NCBI GenBank assembly: GCA_025935755.1
Contig: JAICUQ010000012.1
Location: forward strand, 1 to 38,416
Origin: Chthoniobacterales bacterium
GTDB taxonomy: Bacteria > Verrucomicrobiota > Verrucomicrobiia > Chthoniobacterales > UBA10450
Direction of reading: 5' to 3'
Length of the DNA stretch: 38,416 nt
Shown here: positions 16,653 through 35,067 of the stretch, one piece after another
Position numbering within the stretch: the stretch's first letter is position 1
How the letters are laid out: each line of letters opens with the position of its first letter
Made by a program: the position numbers and the translations under genes
Notes under the pieces: generated by a model
Told to the model about the DNA's origin: nothing
The model's database searches: none
What the model saw: the letters and a program-made list of their open reading frames with translations, nothing else

Positions 16653-19391
16653 TTATTCGGTGCTCTGATTCGCCGACTGCATCGCAAGCTCGCGCGCGAA
16701 CTGAAGCGTGTCGATGGAATCGACATCTTTGTCGCGTCGAATCGCCTTTATTCTCGGAAACCGCAGAGCAAGTCCACTGGCGTGACGAGCGCTGGGCTGG
16801 ATTGAATTGAAAGCGACCTCCAGTACCACATCAGGCTTCACTCTGCGGTACCGGCCAAGATCGGCGATGGTGTTCTGTTTGAAGTGCTCCGTTAACTCCG
16901 CAATTTCGACGTCAGTCAGCCCGCTATAGGCTTTACCGATTGGCAACAGTTCGCCAGTCGTTTCGTCGCGCACGGCGAAGGTGTAATCACTTAACACATC
17001 GTTGCGTTTCCCGTGGCCAAGCTCCGCCGCAACAACCACCACATCCAGGGTCGCCAGTTCGCGTTTCAATTTGAACCAGAACATCCCGCGAGCGCCCGGC
17101 AGATAAAAACTTTCGGCGTCTTTGATCATGAGACCTTCGTTCAACCGCCGGCGTGCATCCTGAAAAATTTGTTCAATCTCTTTCGCAGAATGCGCCGGCG
17201 TGACATTCGCCCTTTGAAATTGCGGCGGTAATATGAGTTTGCCGAGTTGTTCCCGCCGTTCGCGGAGTGGAGTTTTCAACAGCGACCGTCCGTCTATCCA
17301 GAGAAGATCGAAGATTACAAAGGCGACGGGCACGTCTGCTGCGGCACCTGTAAACAGGTCAGGAGTGCCCTCCTTGCGTCCGAGCCGCTTTTGCAGATCG
17401 AAAAAGGTCAGCCGCCGCCCTTCGTCAAAAGCGATGATCTCGCCATCGGCGATCAGCTCCTGGTCAAACGTCCTGGCTTGCTCAACAAGCTCCGGAAATT
17501 GCCCGGTGATTCGCCTGAGATCGCGCGAGAAAATCTCGACCCTATCGCTGCTACGGTGAAGCTGCGCACGAATGCCGTCGAATTTGTCTTCGACGTATAC
17601 CGTAGCCGGGACTGGTGATCCCGGTTGGCCGGCGTCAACGCCCGCGGCTACAGTAAAGCGTTCCCACACCGCCTCAGCGGTCGGTTCAGGGGTGGCAAGC
17701 ATACACTTGATAGGGCGAAGTACCGATAGTTCGGCACCGTGCAGTTCTTTCCGTGATGCCAGCAGCGCGGTCCGGCCAATGTCGCCTAACAACATGTTGG
17801 CTTGCTTCACTTCTTCGAGCGAAGCATCGAATGCCCTGGCGATCGCTTCTTCAACCAGGCCTTCGCGCAGACCGATGCGCAGGTCGCCTGTTAAAATCTT
17901 GACCACGTACTCGCCTTCGCGCGCAGATAGTTTTGAAAATCGTTCGCGCAGCAGCTTTGCCTTGGCGATCGGTCCGCGTGCAAGATGAAGGCTTTCGAAT
18001 AACCCGGCCGACTCGCCAATACTGAATGGCTGCGGCGTCGTTCGCTCATCGAGAACTTCAAACGCAGTCTTCCCGGCATCTCCATGTTTGCTGGCGATTC
18101 GATGAAACTCAGGCTCGCTGATGTTTGTCGCGTCTTGCAACGCGCGAAAGATTACCGCCCACCCGACCTGCAATACCCGCGGATCGGTTTGGGCAAATGC
18201 CCTTCCGGTGAAGTACGTAGTCGCAAACGGAAGCTGTTCACTTGTTAGGTCGCGCAGGTAATCGGATAGCAACCGTATCTTTTCCAGCTTAGCCGTCGTC
18301 GCACCGATGGTTTCTCCGACATTTGCGAAATCGAGAAACTCAGATCGTGGCGTCGAATTGGAACGTTGGCCGGTGCCGGATGTTTCAGGTGACGATCGGG
18401 GCGCGATCTCTTGGCCTCCGAAGTGCAGTTCCATCTGATTTTCTTCGGTCAGGGCCCATGCTTCCAAGCCGCGGGCGCGAAGATCCGAGGCAAAAGCTGC
18501 GGCAAAGCCGTGCAGCGTCAACACACGGCGCGGTTGCACCAATTCGACGTACCGAAGCAAATCGTCGTAGTCCGCATGATCCGACAGCGGAAATGCCCGA
18601 TCGACCTGGTGGCGATACACGGCCTGGGGATCGACGGCCCATCCACTAATCAGTGCCACACGTTTTCGCGGGATGTTTTCCAGCATCGGCGAGCGGTTCG
18701 CGCTCGGCGGACAGATCAACACTTTACCTGCTACATCGTTTCGATTGTATCGGACGTATTTGCAGAATGATTGCCCGAGTTGTTCGTAGATCCGCGTCAT
18801 TTGATAAACCGCGCCATGGAGCATGGGCGTCACACCCGCGCCTTCCAGCGCGCAGAGGATTTCCTGCGCTTTGCCTAACGAGTACCCCAGCAGCACCGGC
18901 ACCTCTCCTGCGTGGATGGTTTCGCTGCAGAAAGCGACCATCTGATCGATGACTTCTTTCGTTGGAGGAAAGCGATAGCGCGGCGTACCGAATGTCGTTT
19001 CCATGACGAGTGTATCAGCATGACGCCACTCCGCCGGTTCGGCGGACCCGCCGTTACGCAATTTGAAATCTCCACTGTAGAGCAGCGTCTCCTCATCAGC
19101 GAAGACCAGGCATTGAGCCGAGCCGAAAATATGCCCCGCTGGTATCAACATCATATCGACGCGGCGAACGGATCGTCTTTCTCCGAATCGCAAACAATGT
19201 TCGATCCGTGAGCCCGGCAGACGGGCGCGCATCAGCCGTGCTGTCCGCTCTGAAACGATCACCTCCCGGTGCGGCGCGATGTGGTCACTGTGCGCGTGAG
19301 ACACGAACGCGAAAGATTTTGCATCCCATGGGTCCAGCCATAAATCTTGTTCCGGCAGGTAAACCCCGCGCTGATATCGAACCTCGATCAC
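16653..19391 (-). CDS. Exonuclease-DNA ligase fusion (MBL/beta-CASP + ATP-dependent ligase)
   Basis: One 912-residue chain carries two enzymes that are usually separate genes. Residues 1-325 are a metallo-beta-lactamase/beta-CASP nuclease of the 'ligase-associated exonuclease' type: HAHSDH at 32-37, PAGHIFGSAQ near 84-93, LLYSGDFK near 103-110, SDHADYDDL near 270-278 and LHGF near 293. A Ser/Pro-rich linker (about 326-350) follows. Residues ~351-912 are a complete ATP-dependent DNA ligase: nucleotidyl Lys K603 in EDKFDGIR, DGEIIAF (649-655), EGLMIKD (752-758) and FWFKLKRE (771-778), with the DNA-binding domain before and an OB fold after. The start is GTG at 19391. Expected role: end processing and sealing in DNA repair. 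Confidence 0.92.
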   Translation of the reverse strand: MIEVRYQRGVYLPEQDLWLDPWDAKSFAFVSHAHSDHIAPHREVIVSERTARLMRARLPGSRIEHCLRFGERRSVRRVDMMLIPAGHIFGSAQCLVFADEETLLYSGDFKLRNGGSAEPAEWRHADTLVMETTFGTPRYRFPPTKEVIDQMVAFCSETIHAGEVPVLLGYSLGKAQEILCALEGAGVTPMLHGAVYQMTRIYEQLGQSFCKYVRYNRNDVAGKVLICPPSANRSPMLENIPRKRVALISGWAVDPQAVYRHQVDRAFPLSDHADYDDLLRYVELVQPRRVLTLHGFAAAFASDLRARGLEAWALTEENQMELHFGGQEIAPRSSPETSGTGQRSNSTPRSEFLDFANVGETIGATTAKLEKIRLLSDYLRDLTSEQLPFATTYFTGRAFAQTDPRVLQVGWAVIFRALQDATNISEPEFHRIASKHGDAGKTAFEVLDERTTPQPFSIGESAGLFESLHLARGPIAKAKLLRERFSKLSAREGEYVVKILTGDLRIGLREGLVEEAIARAFDASLEEVKQANMLLGDIGRTALLASRKELHGAELSVLRPIKCMLATPEPTAEAVWERFTVAAGVDAGQPGSPVPATVYVEDKFDGIRAQLHRSSDRVEIFSRDLRRITGQFPELVEQARTFDQELIADGEIIAFDEGRRLTFFDLQKRLGRKEGTPDLFTGAAADVPVAFVIFDLLWIDGRSLLKTPLRERREQLGKLILPPQFQRANVTPAHSAKEIEQIFQDARRRLNEGLMIKDAESFYLPGARGMFWFKLKRELATLDVVVVAAELGHGKRNDVLSDYTFAVRDETTGELLPIGKAYSGLTDVEIAELTEHFKQNTIADLGRYRRVKPDVVLEVAFNSIQPSARHASGLALRFPRIKAIRRDKDVDSIDTLQFARELAMQSANQSTE

Positions 19392-26060: not shown

Positions 26061-27965
26061 CTATTTGGCTATCGCCGCTTCGACCGCGGATTCGGTGGCA
26101 GGCGTAGCTGCCGGCATGGTTTGGTCTGCCGGCGCGGGCGCGATTGAAATGATCGTGAGCTGAGCGGTGTCGTGCTCCGTGTTTAGCGAAACCGTTTCGC
26201 CGGCTTCATGACCCAGCAACGCCTGGCCGATGGCCGTTTGGTACGAGATGATGTGCCGATCGGGATCGCCGTCCCAGGCGCCGAGGATGGTATAAGTCTC
26301 TTCGTTATTTGTTTCCAGATTGCGCAACTTCACGATCGTGCCAATCGAAACACGCGACGTATCCGGATTTTCAAATGACGTGCCTCTCGCGTCGTGCAGC
26401 ATCACCTCGAGCTCGGCTTTGCGTCGCATCAAAACGCTTTGCATTTGCTTCGCTGCTTTGAATTCGAAATTCTCGCTCAGATCGCCGTAGGACCGGGCAA
26501 TCGCTATCTCCTTGGTGTTCTCGGGAATTTTTACCTTTACGATCTCTTCGTACTCCGCTCTGCGTTTTTCCAAACTGCTCCACGACACAATGAGAGGCGC
26601 AGTTTTTTCCTGCGGTTCTGCGCCGGCGATCATGTTTTCCAATTCCGGATGAACTTTGACCATCCGCGCCAGGAGGGATCGTTTTGTCAGTTCATCGAAC
26701 AAAGGTGTCAGCTGAAGACGCCGCATCGCATCGCGTGCCAGGCCGACATCGACTTTCTTGAAGATCTCTCCAAGCAATTCCCGGTCATCGACCAACGCCT
26801 TCTGCAATTTGCTGGCACGACCGGAAGAATTATGCTGTTCGCGCTCGAGCGCAGCGAGAATCGCCCAAAGCAAATCCGGCGTAATCAGATCGCTCCAGGT
26901 CTTTTTCTCCCCGCACAACCAAATAAGCATCTCGCTCGTGGCTGAATGTTCGCGAATGCTCCGCTCCAGCATCGCCCGAAGCTCGCCATGTCGCCCGCCT
27001 TCGGTTAAGATGCGCGGGATTTGTGCCACCATTCGCCCGTGGCTCGCCTCCATGAGACGCAAGGCGCGCTCTGTCCATCCTTCTCCCAGGGCCTCTGGCA
27101 AAGCCTGCAAAACGCGTTTCTCTTTTGCCGCTGGCAGATTTGGAAGGATCAACGTCAAACGCTTTTCATCTTCCACAATCAATTTCGAAAGAGTCAGACC
27201 GATGTGCGTGACGTGCAGCGATGGCACAAGCGCGAGCAAATCATCCCGCGCAATGATGAGTTCGAATGCCAGCTCAGGATGCAACTTTTGGTTTCGCGCC
27301 GCGGCGTTTTCGATCGCCACCACAACTGGTTGAAGTTGTTTCTCCGGTTCCTTGAATTGGTCATGCGATTTGATGATCTGTTCCACTGCCGCGATTTGCT
27401 GCTTCGGCTGCCTGGCCTTGTTAAACGCCGCGAGCAGTTCATCCGCATGCGACACCCCTTCGCCGCGGATTTCTATGGGCTCGGTCTTTTTTGAGGGGAT
27501 CGAAAACCGTCCGCTCGTTTTAAGAGCTTTCCTGGTCGATTCCCACCAGCGTTTCCACTCCGCTTCGGTGAAGATATCGCCAACGAGCCATTCTCCGATC
27601 TGTTGCGCACTGGCTTTGCCATCCAGGCTTTCCAAGATGTTCTGAACCAGCGCGACCGGATTCTCCCTGGCCAGGGTTTTGACCGATTCCACGTCCGTTA
27701 CTTTTCGGACCAAAAAATGTTCGGGTGGCAGCGGCGTCAGATTCTCTGCCGCGTATTGCGCCTGCATCGGATGAAACTTCTTGGTTGCAAAATCGATGAC
27801 GATTTGATTTAGCAACAGGTTCCATTCGCGGACGCGACCGAAACCCCAACTCTTGTGCAGGCAATATGTACCCGGTTTTAATTTATACAGTTGGCCTGCG
27901 GATTTTGTAGTGAGCTTGCCTGCTTCGACCAGTTTTTCTAATTCAGCATCCATTTGTGAGGACAA
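26061..27965 (-). CDS. Long GreA/GreB-family transcription elongation factor
   Basis: A 634-residue protein with the Gre module only at its C-terminus. The coiled coil carries the catalytic-tip acids in GDLSEN at 494-499 (D495, E498), within KEIAIARSYGDLSENFEFKAAK; the FKBP-like part follows (GTIVKLRN, YTILGAWDGDPDRHIISYQTAIGQALLGHEAGETV). The 470 residues before it are helical repeats with no Gre homology, apart from an N-terminal SH3-like KSWGFGRVREWN segment. Normal GreA is about 158 residues; chlamydial GreA is also greatly extended. It should rescue backtracked RNA polymerase; the extension may add RNA polymerase or ribosome contacts. A perfect hairpin lies ~35 bases after the stop. Confidence 0.85.
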   Translation of the reverse strand: MSSQMDAELEKLVEAGKLTTKSAGQLYKLKPGTYCLHKSWGFGRVREWNLLLNQIVIDFATKKFHPMQAQYAAENLTPLPPEHFLVRKVTDVESVKTLARENPVALVQNILESLDGKASAQQIGEWLVGDIFTEAEWKRWWESTRKALKTSGRFSIPSKKTEPIEIRGEGVSHADELLAAFNKARQPKQQIAAVEQIIKSHDQFKEPEKQLQPVVVAIENAAARNQKLHPELAFELIIARDDLLALVPSLHVTHIGLTLSKLIVEDEKRLTLILPNLPAAKEKRVLQALPEALGEGWTERALRLMEASHGRMVAQIPRILTEGGRHGELRAMLERSIREHSATSEMLIWLCGEKKTWSDLITPDLLWAILAALEREQHNSSGRASKLQKALVDDRELLGEIFKKVDVGLARDAMRRLQLTPLFDELTKRSLLARMVKVHPELENMIAGAEPQEKTAPLIVSWSSLEKRRAEYEEIVKVKIPENTKEIAIARSYGDLSENFEFKAAKQMQSVLMRRKAELEVMLHDARGTSFENPDTSRVSIGTIVKLRNLETNNEETYTILGAWDGDPDRHIISYQTAIGQALLGHEAGETVSLNTEHDTAQLTIISIAPAPADQTMPAATPATESAVEAAIAK

Positions 27966-29726: not shown

Positions 29727-30860
29727 ATGCGGCTTGTTGACTTGAAAATTGAGGACGTTGCTTTCGGCGGAAAAGGCGTTGCCCGAGAACAGGGTAAAGC
29801 TGTTTTCGTCCCTTACGTCATCGACGGGGAAGTCGTTTCCGCTGAAATCGTGCGGGAAAAGAAACAGTTCGCCGAGGCAGAACTGGTCGAACTCAAACAG
29901 AGTTCCGCGGATCGTGTCACTCCGGAATGCCCGTATTTCGGCCGATGCGGCGGCTGCGCTTATCAGCACATCGCTTACGAACATCAACTCGCCATTAAGC
30001 AGCGGCAGGTAAGTGGGGCGCTCCAGCGGATCGGCAAAATGAACGACGTTCCCATGCGTCCAATTATTCCGTCGCCCAAGCAGTACGAGTATCGCAATCG
30101 CATCACAGTGCATGCCGAGGGTGGGGTGGTTGGTTTTTTCAGGCGCGATTCCCATCAATTGATTGATGTCGAGCGGTGTCCGATCTCCCTGGATGAAGTG
30201 AATCGAGCGCTCGCGAAGTTGCGCGGACAAAAGCATCTGCAAAACGGACATTACACACTACGGCCTGCTTCCGGGCTGCGCGTGTTCTCGCAGGTGAACG
30301 ATGAGGTTGCACAAACACTGCGGGACTTGGTTGCCGATCTCGTCGCACCGAACCAGCAATTGTTAATCGACTGCTACTGCGGCGCGGGATTTTTCGCGAA
30401 AGCGTTGCTCGACAAATTCGAGCGCGTGATTGGGATTGATTGGGACCGGTACGCTATCGCCGCTGCGAAAGAAAATGCGACTCAAAAAGAGACGTACATC
30501 GCTGGAGACGTGGAAAGCGAACTGACAAGGAGCGATGACTTGTTAGGCGCCGAAGTAGAAACACGACGGCTGGGAAGCCGTCGCTCCGTGACGATCATCG
30601 TCGATCCGCCGGCCACAGGACTCACTGAAGGAATCCGCAACGCGATAACCAATCTCGCCCCGGAAACATTGATCTACGTCTCCTGCAATCCGCCGACTCT
30701 TGCGCGTGATCTGAAAGAGTTGCAGAACAGATTTGCCATCCATTCAATCACACCGCTCGATATGTTTCCTCAAACTGCAGAGATCGAGGTCCTCGCGCAT
30801 CTTAGGCATAGACAAGCAGACCAATATCTTCCGGCAGCGAGTCCGAAACCTCGCGAATAA
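29727..30860 (+). CDS. TrmA/RlmD-type RNA m5U methyltransferase
   Basis: A 377-residue enzyme. An N-terminal TRAM domain (1-57) precedes a [4Fe-4S] motif with C68, C74, C77 (CPYFGRCGGC) and C151. The SAM fold has DCYCGAGFF (215-223) and DPPATGL (293-299), and the catalytic nucleophile is C320 in VSCNPPTLARDL. It makes 5-methyluridine in 23S rRNA or tRNA; which target cannot be decided by eye. Residues 280-287 (RRLGSRRS) are encoded by a perfect 8-bp palindrome with a GGGA loop at 30564-30583, which looks like an in-frame repeat insertion. Its last 59 bases overlap the convergent transporter gene. Confidence 0.87.
   Translation: MRLVDLKIEDVAFGGKGVAREQGKAVFVPYVIDGEVVSAEIVREKKQFAEAELVELKQSSADRVTPECPYFGRCGGCAYQHIAYEHQLAIKQRQVSGALQRIGKMNDVPMRPIIPSPKQYEYRNRITVHAEGGVVGFFRRDSHQLIDVERCPISLDEVNRALAKLRGQKHLQNGHYTLRPASGLRVFSQVNDEVAQTLRDLVADLVAPNQQLLIDCYCGAGFFAKALLDKFERVIGIDWDRYAIAAAKENATQKETYIAGDVESELTRSDDLLGAEVETRRLGSRRSVTIIVDPPATGLTEGIRNAITNLAPETLIYVSCNPPTLARDLKELQNRFAIHSITPLDMFPQTAEIEVLAHLRHRQADQYLPAASPKPRE
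30564..30583. repeat. Palindrome inside the methyltransferase gene
   Basis: CGACGGCT-GGGA-AGCCGTCG is a perfect 8-bp stem with a GNRA-type loop, located in the coding sequence at a variable loop between the SAM motif and DPPATGL. Confidence 0.75.
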
Positions 30861-32610
30861 CATCACCGCGAAGCAGGGCTATCAATGCGCTGCGTTGCGG
30901 CGCTCCGAGAATTACCCGCGATGCGCCGAGCGTTGCTGCAACGTCTACAATCGTTTCGGCAGCCGATGGGCTTACAGCATAACAGAATAATGGCGTGATG
31001 TTCGCCGCTTTGCGTTTGGCTTCAGCGAAGATGGCGCTCGCTTCCCGATCGTCCTGCCATTTGCGTCCGACATCCTCTTCAGTCATGAACGGTTGTTCGC
31101 GCACGAACAGCAGATAAAGCCTTGAACCCATCTTTGCCGCTTCGTGCAGCGCAAAATCCAGAGTGCGTCCGGCACTTCGAATTGCGCAGAGAACAGCTTC
31201 GCCATCGGAAGAAAGCAGTGGCTCGGCTTTCGGCTGCCTGAGGAGAAGCGGCGTATGACCGGCCTCGAGTGTTCCCGCGGTCTCTCTTTTCATTCGTCGC
31301 TCGAGGACCAAACCACGCAGAATCAAACCAACTGCCAGGATGGTGACCGCGAAATAGCGTGCGTTCGGTTTATCAATCAGCAGCGACATCTCGATCCCAA
31401 TCATTACGAGGAACGTGGTGAACATTAGTGCGCGCTCCCACATTTTGATCGCTAGCTTTCGGTCGGTCGCGGTCGCGCCGAGGTTGGTTGCGATCGCGCC
31501 GACCACGCCGACCGCATAGAGGTCAGCCAATCCGGCCATGTCCTTGACGCACAGCACCAGCAACATTGGTACAATCGTGGCTAACCCCATGCCAAAGGCA
31601 GGAACTCCCCAGCGATTGAGTCGCTGAAATATTTGCGGGATTTCCCGGTCGCGCGACATCAGGAACTGGATCGTGATGAGATCCACAATCGCGGTGTTTA
31701 CGGCGGAAAAGAGCAACAGGCCGAACACAACACTGATAACAAACCCGAATGCGTGACCGAGCGCGCCCCCAACGAACACTTGTCCCATATACCGCAGCAT
31801 GTAATCGCGTACGCCCTCGGCTCCTGGTGCGTTAACATCGCCGTTGACGTTTGTTAGGCCGGATAGCGCAAGCATGGCAAGGCCAAGCAGCGCGGTAAAT
31901 ACGCATACTTCGATCAATACGATTAAAATCGCGGGCGTAGATGTTTTCGTGACTCGAGGATTCGCTTCGGTGCTGCCAGGATTGAGTTTCATCACGCCTG
32001 TTGCGTTGGCAATTGCCTCAACGCCGGAGAGTGCCAGCACGATCCCAACAAAACCGGCCCAGTTTTTCGACGGTGATCCATGCAGGGGCTGCAAGTTGTG
32101 CCACGCGTTCGCGAGATGCGGAATACTCAGTGCGCCGAGTGCGATTACTACTAAAACCGTTGGCACTGAAATCAGAAAGGCAAGACCACCCGTATGGCGC
32201 GGACCGAACAAATTCAAAAGGCCGATAATTAAAATCGCGGCTGCAGCGAACTTTTCAGGATGTGGCACGCCGAGATACGCGAACGCCGACAAAGCGCTAA
32301 TTGCGGCTGTCACCAAATAGTCAGCGATAAGCAAAAAAGCCCCTACAATTGAGATAACTTCGCTCCGGTGTCGTACGCTGGCGTAGACGCCTCCGCCATC
32401 TGGATAAAGACGGCAGATTACGATGTAATTCAGGCCAACGAGAGCGGTCAGTATGCACATCGGCGCGATCAGCCAGAAAGAAGAATAGCCCGCAACGGCG
32501 AATGCCAGGCCAATCACATAGGCTTTGCTGGTTCCCCAATCGCCGTACAAAATCGCGGCCGCGCGCTTCCAATCTACATTGCGCGGTCGCTTAACGTTAG
32601 TTGGGATCAA
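30802..32610 (-). CDS. KimA-like APC transporter with USP-like C-terminal domain (copy 1)
   Basis: A 602-residue transporter from the TTG at 32610. About twelve membrane helices of the APC superfamily carry ILYGDWGTSKAY, YPDGGGVYASV, LSGVEAIANATGVMK and YAVGVVGAIATNLG; the last ~120 residues form a universal-stress-like domain (AIRSAGRTLDFALHEA, VAATLGASRVILGAPQ). This is the plan of B. subtilis KimA (YdaO), a high-affinity K+/H+ symporter; an amino-acid substrate remains possible. An ATG at 32733 is in frame but lies inside the upstream riboswitch and is not the start. The start is TTG because copy 2 has an in-frame stop before the same conserved codon. Confidence 0.85.
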   Translation of the reverse strand: MIPTNVKRPRNVDWKRAAAILYGDWGTSKAYVIGLAFAVAGYSSFWLIAPMCILTALVGLNYIVICRLYPDGGGVYASVRHRSEVISIVGAFLLIADYLVTAAISALSAFAYLGVPHPEKFAAAAILIIGLLNLFGPRHTGGLAFLISVPTVLVVIALGALSIPHLANAWHNLQPLHGSPSKNWAGFVGIVLALSGVEAIANATGVMKLNPGSTEANPRVTKTSTPAILIVLIEVCVFTALLGLAMLALSGLTNVNGDVNAPGAEGVRDYMLRYMGQVFVGGALGHAFGFVISVVFGLLLFSAVNTAIVDLITIQFLMSRDREIPQIFQRLNRWGVPAFGMGLATIVPMLLVLCVKDMAGLADLYAVGVVGAIATNLGATATDRKLAIKMWERALMFTTFLVMIGIEMSLLIDKPNARYFAVTILAVGLILRGLVLERRMKRETAGTLEAGHTPLLLRQPKAEPLLSSDGEAVLCAIRSAGRTLDFALHEAAKMGSRLYLLFVREQPFMTEEDVGRKWQDDREASAIFAEAKRKAANITPLFCYAVSPSAAETIVDVAATLGASRVILGAPQRSALIALLRGDVIREVSDSLPEDIGLLVYA

Positions 32611-32690
32611 TTCGTCTGACTGGATCGAAGCACTACTCGCGCGACGAGGGCGCTTTACTTTGCCAGGAGCCGCTTTGACGACTTCCTTTG

Positions 32691-32850
32691 CCTTTAATGA
32701 TGCTGACGAGGTTAGCTGTCGGGCTGGAGCCATTAAATGCTCCCGATGCCGCGCATCGTTCGCCCCGATTTGCGCAGTCTTCTCCGCGCAAAATTTGGTT
32801 CCCCCGTTGGACCGGCCACTCACCGGGCCATTAAGCGAAACAAAGAACTG
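32691..32850 (-). ncRNA. c-di-AMP riboswitch (ydaO/yuaA class), copy 1
   Basis: Read on the minus strand, the leader contains in order CGCTTAATGG (5' side), CGGGGGAACCA, a variable arm, GGGGCGAACG, hairpins GATGC/GCATC and GGAGC/GCTCC, and the hallmark CCCGACAGCTAACCTCG at 32707-32723 (as its reverse complement). These are the conserved core segments of the ydaO c-di-AMP riboswitch. A 79-base stretch (32691-32769) differs from copy 2 by only one base, far more similar than the downstream coding regions. In B. subtilis the same riboswitch controls kimA, which is what follows here. Confidence 0.88.
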
Positions 32851-32855
32851 CCCGA

Positions 32856-32884
32856 AACATCTGGTTAACTCGAATTCGAGTCAA
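32856..32884 (-). promoter_or_regulatory. Predicted promoter of the copy 1 riboswitch transcript
   Basis: The minus strand reads TTGACT (at 32879-32884), a 17-bp spacer and GATGTT (32856-32861). The same -35 and the same 17-bp spacing occur before copy 2. The predicted start of transcription falls where similarity between the two leaders begins (AGTTCTTTG). A 14-bp perfect palindrome, ACTCGAATTCGAGT (32868-32881), overlaps the -35 and spacer and could be an operator. Confidence 0.5.
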
Positions 32885-32968
32885 GCGAGCCGGACCAGCA
32901 CGCAAATTCGCATCCGCGAGTCCAATTGCGCATCGGTTCGCCCCATCCAGATCGAAGTGCGCGGCATG

Positions 32969-34795
32969 CTACGCATAGACCAGCAGGTCGATATCATCGG
33001 GCAGTGAGTTGGAAACTTCGCGGATGACATTTCCGCGAAGCAGATTGATTAACGCGCTGCGCTGCGGCGCGCCCAGAATGACTCGCGATGCACCGAGCGT
33101 TGCCGCAACATCGACGATCGTATCCGCAGCGGAAGGGCTGACCGCGTACGCGAAGAGTGGTTGATGATCGCCGGCCTTTTGTTTCGCTTCTGCGAAAATC
33201 GCACTCGCTTCGGGATCTTCCTGCCATTTGCGCCTGACGTCCTGTTCAGTCATGAACCGTTGTTCGCGAACGAACAGCAGATAAAGCCGGGCATCTGTTT
33301 TTCGAGCTTCGCGCAAAGAAAAATCGAGTGTCCGGCCGGCGCTACGGACGGCGCAGAGAATCGATTCACCGCCTGGAGGAGCGAACGTTTCAGGTTTTGG
33401 CTGGGAAACGTTGGCGACCAGCCGTTCCGGAACACCGCCCAAGCCCGGCGGCGTTTCCTTTTTCATCCGCCGCTCGTGTACGAGACCGCGCAAAATCAAC
33501 CCCACGAGCAGAACGGTAATTACAAAGACCCGCGCGTAAGGTTTGTCCACGAGCAGTGTGATTTCGATACCGGCCATCACCAGGAACGTGAAAAACATCA
33601 ACCCGCGTTCCCACGGCTTTATCGGGCGAGTCCGATCGGTGGCGGTGGCGCCGAGGTTTGTCGCAATCGCACCAACTACACCGACAGCATAAAGTTCAGC
33701 GAGACCAGAGATGTCTTTGACTAGAATCACCAGCGCCATTGGCACCCCTGTGGCGAGAACCATGGCGAGGGTAGGAACGCCCCATCGGTTGAGCCGTTGA
33801 AATACCTTTGGAATCTCACGATCTCGCGCGAGTAGAAATTGTACGCTGATTAGCGCGACGATCGAAGTGTTAACCGCCGAAAAGAGCAGCAACCCGAATA
33901 CAATGCTAACCGCTATCGCGAAAACATGCCCGACTCCCGGACCCAACGTCGCACCGACGAAGATTTGGCCCATGTAGCGCAGCATGTAATCGCGGACACC
34001 TTGTGCGCCGGGGGCATTAACGTCGCCGTTAACAATTTCCAATCCGCTGAGCGCGTGCATCGCGAGTCCAAGCAGCGCAGTGAACACGCACACTTCAATC
34101 ATCACGATCAAAAGCGCCGGCGTAGAGGTTTTCGTGACTGAAGGGTGCGCTTCGGTGGTGCCGGGATTCAGTTTCATCACGCCGGTTGCGTTTGCGATCG
34201 CTTCGACGCCCGAAAGAGCGAGCACAATACTGACGAACGCCGCCCAGTTATGCCAGAAACCTCCCTGCAGTGGCTGCAAATGTCCGATCGCCTGGCCGAG
34301 ATGTGGCAGGCTGAATATGCCGAGCGTGATCACCACGAGTGCAGTGGGAACTGAAACCAAAAACGCCAGGCCGCCGGTGTGTTTTGGACCCAGCAGGTTG
34401 AGCAAGCCGATCGCGAGGATCGCCGCCGCTGCAAATTTTTCCGGATGCGGAACGCCGAGGTAAGCGAATGCCGAAAGAGAACTGATCGCTGCCGTCACCA
34501 AATAATCGGCGATGAGCAAGAACGCTCCGACGATTGAAATCACCTCGCTGCGGTGCCGTACGCTCGCGTAAACGCCGCCCCCGTCCGGGTAGAGGCGGCA
34601 GACAATCATGTAGTTGAAACCGACCAGCAGAACGAGAGCGCACATCGAGGCGATGAGCCAAAAAGATGAGTAGCCCGCGACTGCGAAGGCCAGACCGATG
34701 ACGTAGGCCTTACTAGTGCCCCAATCGCCGTACAGAATCGCCGCGGCGCGGGGAACGTCGACGTTGCGTGGACGTTTTATGCTGGTTGGAATCAA
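32969..34795 (-). CDS. KimA-like APC transporter with USP-like C-terminal domain (copy 2)
   Basis: A 608-residue close paralogue of copy 1, with the same helices and C-terminal USP-like domain (AVRSAGRTLDFSLREA, VAATLGASRVILGAPQ). The start must be the TTG at 34795: upstream in frame there is only a stop (TGA at 34838-34840), and no ATG or GTG lies between. The MAPARQ reading upstream is riboswitch RNA, not protein. Tandem with copy 1 on the minus strand, each with its own leader, so each is probably its own transcript. Predicted role: K+ (or amino-acid) uptake, shut down when c-di-AMP is high. Confidence 0.85.
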   Translation of the reverse strand: MIPTSIKRPRNVDVPRAAAILYGDWGTSKAYVIGLAFAVAGYSSFWLIASMCALVLLVGFNYMIVCRLYPDGGGVYASVRHRSEVISIVGAFLLIADYLVTAAISSLSAFAYLGVPHPEKFAAAAILAIGLLNLLGPKHTGGLAFLVSVPTALVVITLGIFSLPHLGQAIGHLQPLQGGFWHNWAAFVSIVLALSGVEAIANATGVMKLNPGTTEAHPSVTKTSTPALLIVMIEVCVFTALLGLAMHALSGLEIVNGDVNAPGAQGVRDYMLRYMGQIFVGATLGPGVGHVFAIAVSIVFGLLLFSAVNTSIVALISVQFLLARDREIPKVFQRLNRWGVPTLAMVLATGVPMALVILVKDISGLAELYAVGVVGAIATNLGATATDRTRPIKPWERGLMFFTFLVMAGIEITLLVDKPYARVFVITVLLVGLILRGLVHERRMKKETPPGLGGVPERLVANVSQPKPETFAPPGGESILCAVRSAGRTLDFSLREARKTDARLYLLFVREQRFMTEQDVRRKWQEDPEASAIFAEAKQKAGDHQPLFAYAVSPSAADTIVDVAATLGASRVILGAPQRSALINLLRGNVIREVSNSLPDDIDLLVYA

Positions 34796-34875
34796 ATTGT
34801 TAATGCGAACCGAGACTGGCTCGCGCGACGAGCGGTCTCACCTCAGCAAGCGCGGATCGGCACCGCAGCTCTTGC

Positions 34876-35032
34876 CCTTTAATGATGCTGACGAGGTTAG
34901 CTGTCGGGCTGGAGCCATTAAATGCTCTCGATGCCGCGCATCGTTCGCCCCGATCCGCTGCGCCTGCGCACACGGAAGTGGTTTCCCCGTTGAACCCGCA
35001 CTCGCCGGTCCATTAAGCGGAACAAAGAACTG
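34876..35032 (-). ncRNA. c-di-AMP riboswitch (ydaO/yuaA class), copy 2
   Basis: It has the same conserved segments as copy 1: CGCTTAATGG, CGGGGAAACCA, GGGGCGAACG, GATGC/GCATC hairpin and CCCGACAGCTAACCTCG (as its reverse complement at 34892-34908). The variable arm between them differs from copy 1, as expected for a structured RNA whose core is constrained. One stem position changes (GGAGC to AGAGC). It lies 80 bases upstream of the TTG start, leaving room for an expression platform. Confidence 0.88.
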
Positions 35033-35038
35033 GCGCCA

Positions 35039-35067
35039 ATGATGTGATTGAGTCCATTCGCAGTCAA
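35039..35067 (-). promoter_or_regulatory. Predicted promoter of the copy 2 riboswitch transcript
   Basis: The minus strand reads TTGACT (35062-35067), a 17-bp spacer and CATCAT (35039-35044); this matches copy 1 in -35 sequence and spacing. It lies in the divergent region shared with the plus-strand copy 3. Confidence 0.5.

Follow-up and report, generated by a model that had tools for sequence, protein, structure and literature searches.

Paired c-di-AMP riboswitch leaders of KUP/KimA-related transporter genes in a Verrucomicrobiota bacterium: probable control of potassium uptake at translation

Two neighboring transporter genes on the minus strand of a 38,416-nucleotide stretch of DNA (the window; contig JAICUQ010000012.1 of assembly GCA_025935755.1, positions 1 to 38,416) are each preceded by a leader with an aptamer of the ydaO-type cyclic di-AMP (c-di-AMP) riboswitch class. 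The window belongs to a Verrucomicrobiota bacterium of the Chthoniobacterales clade, whose draft genome of 3.67 Mb is 90% complete. We propose, with a probability of about 75%, that the leaders are c-di-AMP riboswitches that lower the expression of potassium importers and that they act on translation through two platform hairpins. An earlier note, made from the letters of the sequence, had called both leaders ydaO/c-di-AMP riboswitches, and running the Rfam model RF00379 bore this out: both match the full-length model with scores above its gathering score of 38 bits (Table 1). At gathering score no other Rfam family or position matched in the window, nor did RF00379 match elsewhere in the draft genome, and we consider the two real, well-supported further members of a known riboswitch class. 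The aptamer core motif is CAGCUAACCUCG; the core sequence quoted in the earlier note was right for leader 1, while leader 2 reads GGGGAAACCA and not GGGGGAACCA.

Exploring the leaders, we found that the 3' tail is paired with the loop of the aptamer's final hairpin. In 58 aptamers (46 distinct), this loop-tail pseudoknot, which we take to be P7, had a mean pairing energy of -10.0 kcal/mol with the native partners and of -6.3 kcal/mol with swapped partners, and none of 2000 permutations was as good. Since loop and tail differ greatly between aptamers (here AUUUAAUG is paired with CAUUAAAG, elsewhere ACUUCC with GGAAGG) and the pairing is kept, the covariation in the pseudoknot is real. Two hairpins, X and Y, form a platform between aptamer and start codon, and both show native pairing superior to all permutations in alignment A2, which holds 26 of 28 leaders (all but L052, with a short platform, and L057, with an unclear start). 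Hairpin Y carries an inner stem CUCG/CGAG, a loop UCGCG and a variable outer stem; 94.2% of its alignment cells are paired, both sides change in 5 of its 10 pairs, and four of five covariation measures exceeded all 500 shuffles, the fifth being reached by one of the 500. Its end lies 14-22 nt upstream of the UUG start in 26/26 aligned leaders. Upstream of the aptamer, TTGAC begins 35-38 nt before the aptamer-opening TTCTTT in 24 of the 25 family leaders examined, suggesting a -35 element; no -10 consensus was seen with these putative elements.

Table 1. Coordinates of the riboswitch leaders and transporter genes in the window
Feature	Position	Strand	Evidence
c-di-AMP (ydaO-type) aptamer, transporter gene 1	32686..32847	-	RF00379 55.1 bits, E 2.9e-10, full-length model 1-134
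c-di-AMP (ydaO-type) aptamer, transporter gene 2	34870..35029	-	RF00379 51.4 bits, E 3.1e-9, full-length model 1-134
Aptamer 1, 3' half	32691..32769	-	One mismatch to 34876-34954; conserved across 26 family aptamers
Aptamer 2, 3' half	34876..34954	-	Counterpart of 32691-32769
Platform hairpin X, gene 1	32666..32686	-	Native pairing better than all 5000 permutations (26 leaders); boundaries by eye
Platform hairpin X, gene 2	34846..34875	-	Same permutation test; boundaries by eye
Platform hairpin Y, gene 1, core CUCGUCGCGCGAG	32628..32655	-	Covariation, 26 leaders; 0/5000 permutations
Platform hairpin Y, gene 2	34812..34839	-	Covariation, 26 leaders; 0/5000 permutations
Putative -35 TTGACT, gene 1 leader	32879..32884	-	TTGAC position kept in family leaders
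Putative -35 TTGACT, gene 2 leader	35062..35067	-	TTGAC position kept; promoter scan alone at chance (1 found, 1.3 expected)
Transporter gene 1: KUP/KimA-related, APC-type, C-terminal Usp, UUG start	30802..32610	-	Usp PF00582; 77.7% identical to gene 2; start by comparison
Transporter gene 2: KUP/KimA-related, APC-type, C-terminal Usp, UUG start	32969..34795	-	AA_permease_2 + Usp; KimA best solved relative
Gene 3: paralogue diverged to about 46% identity	35131..36954	+	AA_permease_2 + Usp (Pfam); no RF00379 match of its own

UUG is the start codon in 22/22 family leaders in which the transporter comes directly next, a set made up of every such family leader with DNA, the two of the window included (L027, which comes from a different family in the order, was excluded, and 4 of the 35 family riboswitch hits are without DNA). 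These leaders were located by a regular expression requiring TTG; a separate alignment made without it shows the same codon, and an overlapping second collection from the same clade gave UUG in 19/19 (its start-codon table covers 40 of 49 loci, the others being truncated or without a gene start). The window's two starts, TTG at 32610 (gene 1) and at 34795 (gene 2), lie outside the aptamer. A stop codon precedes any upstream in-frame ATG or GTG in 18 of the 22 leaders, including that of gene 2. The leader of gene 1 belongs to the other four: its upstream frame contains an ATG within the aptamer and, beyond it, a GTG, and the start of gene 1 was therefore set by comparison. An AUG start in the aptamer loop (GGGAGC-AUUUAAUG-GCUCC, with a Shine-Dalgarno-like GGGAG) was considered and rejected, because the frame is closed before ATG or GTG in those 18 leaders and because the loop bases pair with the tail. 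We infer that UUG is part of the regulated start.

According to the mechanism that we propose, c-di-AMP would be made by CdaA and probably destroyed by a PgpH-type enzyme, and a high level of c-di-AMP would indicate that cell K+ is sufficient, upon which each leader would lower the expression of its transporter. The transporters would import K+, probably as KUP-type K+/H+ symporters. The ligand-bound aptamer, presumably closed by the loop-tail pseudoknot, would most likely alter, through hairpins X and Y, how accessible the ribosome-binding region and the UUG are, so that control would be exerted at translation and not by an intrinsic terminator. Neither leader has a terminator-like site in the minus-strand interval from aptamer to start (a scan of 2.9 kb returned 8 sites, with 4.0 expected, none of them there). 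The missing terminator, the covarying hairpins and the pattern of UUG and AUG starts fit translational control without proving it. Alternatively, c-di-AMP may cause Rho-dependent or non-canonical termination within the leader, X and Y being pause or termination elements. Such a transcriptional switch would agree with the first-described ydaO switch of B. subtilis, which acts by termination according to PMC9960051, and with the GUUU found directly after hairpin Y in 21/26 leaders, though not in the window's two. However, a U-run terminator is missing, the constant distance from hairpin Y to UUG is a spacing suited to a start site, and C. glutamicum has a presumed translational member of the class (PMC9960051). 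We therefore regard transcriptional switching as unlikely, albeit the strongest competitor of translational control.

To characterize the regulated genes, we compared their products with known transporters. Pfam assigns AA_permease_2 and Usp to genes 2 and 3 and only Usp to gene 1; PF02705 (KUP) found no match at 1e-3 in genes 1-3, and gene 2 as a single query had no PDB match at 1e-3. A 26-row profile (alignment A3: the window's three proteins and 23 of the 49 loci) searched against solved structures matched KimA with E 8.9e-12, followed by the ATP-binding protein MJ0577 (E 0.0079) over the Usp part. The predicted structure of the gene 2 product (mean predicted local distance difference test score, pLDDT, 75.9; predicted template modelling score, pTM, 0.66) placed KimA entries at ranks 1-3 of the Foldseek list, two of them with c-di-AMP bound, with TM-scores of 0.51-0.55 (query length) and a root-mean-square deviation of 14-15, the placement of domains being unreliable. 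Profile-profile comparison gave 95.3% for KimA-type proteins and 86.9% for Kup (E 4.2e-6). Of the K+-coordinating residues of KimA named in PMC6994465 and PMC10284832, Y377 aligns to an identical residue (Y369) and T230 to a serine (S195, a conservative change); D36 and Y43 correspond to D24 and Y31 by equal spacing, while the HMMER local alignment puts W25 at Y43. KimA residues D117, Y118, T121, S125, E233 and N237 also align to identical ones (D97, Y98, T101, S105, E198 and N202). Over the 26 rows, the residues of the K+ site show no or almost no variation. The LYGD motif in transmembrane helix 1 (TM1), which is of the KUP type, is invariant, whereas KimA is described in PMC6994465 as being without the VFGD/IYGD motif found in other KUP proteins. 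Because of this motif we call the family KUP/KimA-related and not KimA. The term KimA-like used in the earlier note is supported only in part: KimA is the best solved relative by profile and by fold, but the single gene 2 query does not find it, the TM1 motif differs, and Arg337 of KimA is not kept.

Judged by their sequences, the transporters form a KUP/KimA-related family with a Usp domain and are not KimA orthologues; K+ import is probably their role. The membrane part of gene 2 is AA_permease_2 by Pfam, and amino-acid transporters and cation-chloride cotransporters come after KimA in the Foldseek list, as might be expected if the transporters carried an amino acid or another solute and the riboswitch tuned osmolyte rather than K+ uptake. 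This explanation is improbable given that KimA is the best solved match by both methods, that the K+-site residues are kept as described above and that TM1 aligns with the Kup motif YGDIGTSPLY. A relative of the transporter that is 49% identical was seen in a Parachlamydiaceae locus (L105:6001-7776), in which no riboswitch was found. A contig filed as Acidobacteria (L067) carries the Verrucomicrobiota arrangement of transporter and riboswitch, possibly by a binning error.

The search of the genome for a diadenylate cyclase (DAC) named as a check in the earlier note returned one DAC protein, of the CdaA type by NCBIfam (215.5 against a cut-off of 188.8). With this protein and the two RF00379 matches above threshold, neither outcome that the earlier note had named as refuting its reading occurred. 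Its gene adjoins an open frame resembling dihydropteroate synthase by eye, and the genome also encodes a PgpH-type 7TMR-HD protein (87.5 bits). Cyclases of Verrucomicrobia are listed in PMC6741144. Together, these genes make it likely that c-di-AMP is present in this organism.

Several observations weigh against c-di-AMP control of K+ import at translation. Folding of 27 leaders gave a mean unpaired probability of the start region of 0.41 in the whole leader and 0.45 in the platform alone, with no consistent change. Pairing of the 3' arm of hairpin X with the ribosome-binding region showed no covariation (2145 of 5000 permutations were as good). The 5' arms of X and Y paired with this region marginally better than permuted partners (90 and 135 of 5000 as good, respectively); given that six pairings were tried, we attach no weight to them. 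A GAG precedes UUG in 21/26 leaders but is absent in the window's two copies. Moreover, the start codon is AUG in 4/4 more distant riboswitch-led lineages, so that the UUG rule is confined to this clade. The c-di-AMP contact Arg337 of KimA is replaced by Lys in gene 2 and by Gln in gene 1; this residue is dispensable for inhibition of KimA, according to PMC10284832. Finally, the presence of the cyclase says little, since 371 of 387 phylum genomes encode a DAC protein. For this reason, co-occurrence with a cyclase was rejected as a test, as it is positive in 24/24 riboswitch genomes and does not discriminate.

The earlier note had also taken a 79-bp stretch with a single mismatch, set against diverged coding regions, as the sign of a constrained RNA. 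This description is exact, and the stretch is the longest ungapped one shared by the two leaders with at most one mismatch. The coding DNA of genes 1 and 2 shows an identity of 70.6% overall but of only 41.4% at third codon positions, and the 5' aptamer halves of the two copies are 70% identical. Among 26 family aptamers, the window's two and 24 from other genomes, mean pairwise identity was 96.4% in the 3' half and 75.5% in the 5' half. (These are 26 of the 30 leaders in alignment A1, without L027, L028, L032 and L033; A1 itself holds 30 of the 36 order and family leaders, without L029, L030, L031, L042, L044 and L057, and 0 of the 22 other phylum leaders.) The inference of a constrained RNA holds because of the identity of the 3' half across the family, and the likeness of the leaders is not due to a recent copy because the coding regions, third codon positions included, have diverged. 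Although the two loci adjoin, a recent copy or gene conversion in place of RNA constraint is very improbable given the family-wide identity of the stretch in other genomes and the divergence of the 5' halves and coding regions, and as the main cause it is refuted, while gene conversion could have made an added contribution.

The tandem arrangement described earlier is true, but a recent tandem duplication is not favored. Gene 1 groups with a copy from another genome, L072 (support 99/96 in one tree and 100/99 in another), and gene 2 stands apart; forcing the two genes into one clade costs 21.4 log units and is not rejected (approximately unbiased test, p-AU 0.20). Compared with a recent tandem event, an earlier duplication or the acquisition of one copy explains the data equally well or better. 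Across the 83 family genomes, many of them incomplete, two full-length copies of the gene 1/2 type were seen in this genome alone; in G431 the second copy is partial, and G418 carries two fragments that overlap and lie on separate contigs. Adjoining transporter pairs about 45% identical to gene 2 were seen in G428 (C28:7867-11600) and G432 (C238:20135-23873), indicating that tandem pairs of the superfamily arise elsewhere too.

In the family, RF00379 gave 35 hits in 34 of the 83 genomes, 30 of which stand before a gene 1/2-type transporter, 24 directly and 6 with a porin gene in between. Two others precede a Band_7-type protein (L033 by Pfam, L032 by eye), and the remaining three are in G423, in G428 at a contig end and in G446 below the cut-off. 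The two locus collections overlap largely, and the porin loci L063, L069, L077, L082, L083 and L090 were matched by coordinates to the same six genomes as L046, L037, L016, L044, L057 and L059. The porin is BBP2 (PF07642) by Pfam in one of the six and alike by eye in the other five. It occupies the first position and starts with UUG in 5/6, L057 having an in-frame AUG, and the transporter as second gene starts with AUG in 6/6 and overlaps the porin stop as TAATG in 5/6. On the tree, each of the traits compared changes nine times; four independent pairs on well-supported branches agreed in direction in 3.8 of 4 on average, which is not significant (sign test p 0.125). A riboswitch with a porin-transporter operon was not found in print among open-licence papers. 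It is conceivable, though we would put it somewhat below even odds, that promoter, c-di-AMP aptamer, two-hairpin platform and UUG constitute a portable cassette by which K+ entry through both membranes is controlled at translation, standing before either a KUP/KimA-type importer of the inner membrane or a porin of the outer membrane that is coupled to the importer through TAATG. The strictly kept UUG would then be part of the switch, because the importer in second position uses AUG.

Beyond the family, RF00379 matched in 6 of 38 genomes of the order sample and in 24 of 387 of the phylum sample, 23 of them above the cut-off. The targets there, which were identified from their open frames and in part confirmed with Pfam or NCBIfam, include KimA relatives, Kup, KdpA, Band_7 proteins and citrate synthase, and below the NCBIfam cut-off TrkH and a CPA2-type antiporter. 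Closer KimA relatives (eight-protein profile, E 9e-72) lie behind RF00379 elsewhere in the phylum. Rescanning of 12 loci at gathering score revealed no missed riboswitch. As separate observations, genes for Band_7/SPFH-type proteins follow an RF00379 riboswitch in several lineages of Verrucomicrobiota (L012, L022, L029 and L033 by Pfam; L011, L023, L025, L031 and L032 by eye), and a citrate synthase gene lies downstream of a strong match of 86.3 bits (L005:1693-2772). Searches of open-licence papers found nothing on point for the riboswitch with Udaeobacter or flotillin. Elsewhere in the window, the minus strand carries a single 912-aa frame with metallo-beta-lactamase/RMMBL-type and ATP-dependent DNA ligase domains (16653-19391) and a GreA/GreB-type protein in whose listed frame about 460 residues precede the domain (26061-27965).

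The riboswitch class and its K+ role are known already, and the transporter kind, the porin sharing the switch in some relatives and the signs of translational action look new. The work adds a specific aptamer pair for c-di-AMP from Verrucomicrobiota that are close relatives of Candidatus Udaeobacter, a group abundant in soil and mostly uncultured. It suggests an undescribed K+ importer family combining KUP and KimA traits with a Usp domain, as well as a regulated porin-importer operon, a kind needed only by two-membrane bacteria. c-di-AMP control of K+ uptake in Verrucomicrobiota, proposed in the earlier note, remains likely as to its target, but the idea is already in print: according to PMC6488665, c-di-AMP riboswitches had been predicted upstream of K+ transporter transcripts in several phyla including Verrucomicrobia.

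Compared with known systems, the leaders resemble the ydaO/yuaA (kimA) riboswitch in the full-length RF00379 match, the loop-tail pseudoknot and the position upstream of likely K+ uptake genes, and differ from it in their Gram-negative Verrucomicrobiota host, in having no intrinsic terminator, in the conserved two-hairpin platform and in UUG. KimA of B. subtilis (6s3k, 8b70, 8b71) is the closest solved relative of the transporters and shares with them the K+-site residues, a membrane part with a cytosolic C-terminal domain and a gene behind a c-di-AMP riboswitch. Unlike KimA, the transporters have YGD in TM1, do not keep Arg337, carry Usp by Pfam where KimA has a PPAT-like domain (PMC10284832), and gene 2 alone finds no match. 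With Kup/HAK/KT (PF02705) they share YGD-x-GTS-xx-Y in TM1 and the profile-profile similarity, yet PF02705 itself is not matched. The leaders also add a candidate translational c-di-AMP switch beside that of C. glutamicum nlpC, for which PMC9960051 proposes that a CUCC stem-loop could pair with the ribosome-binding site. Both are without a canonical terminator and presumably translational, and hairpin X carries an element of the CUCC kind in many leaders here; the target gene differs, and here covariation gives no support to such pairing with the ribosome-binding site, which in the two copies of the window is also weak.

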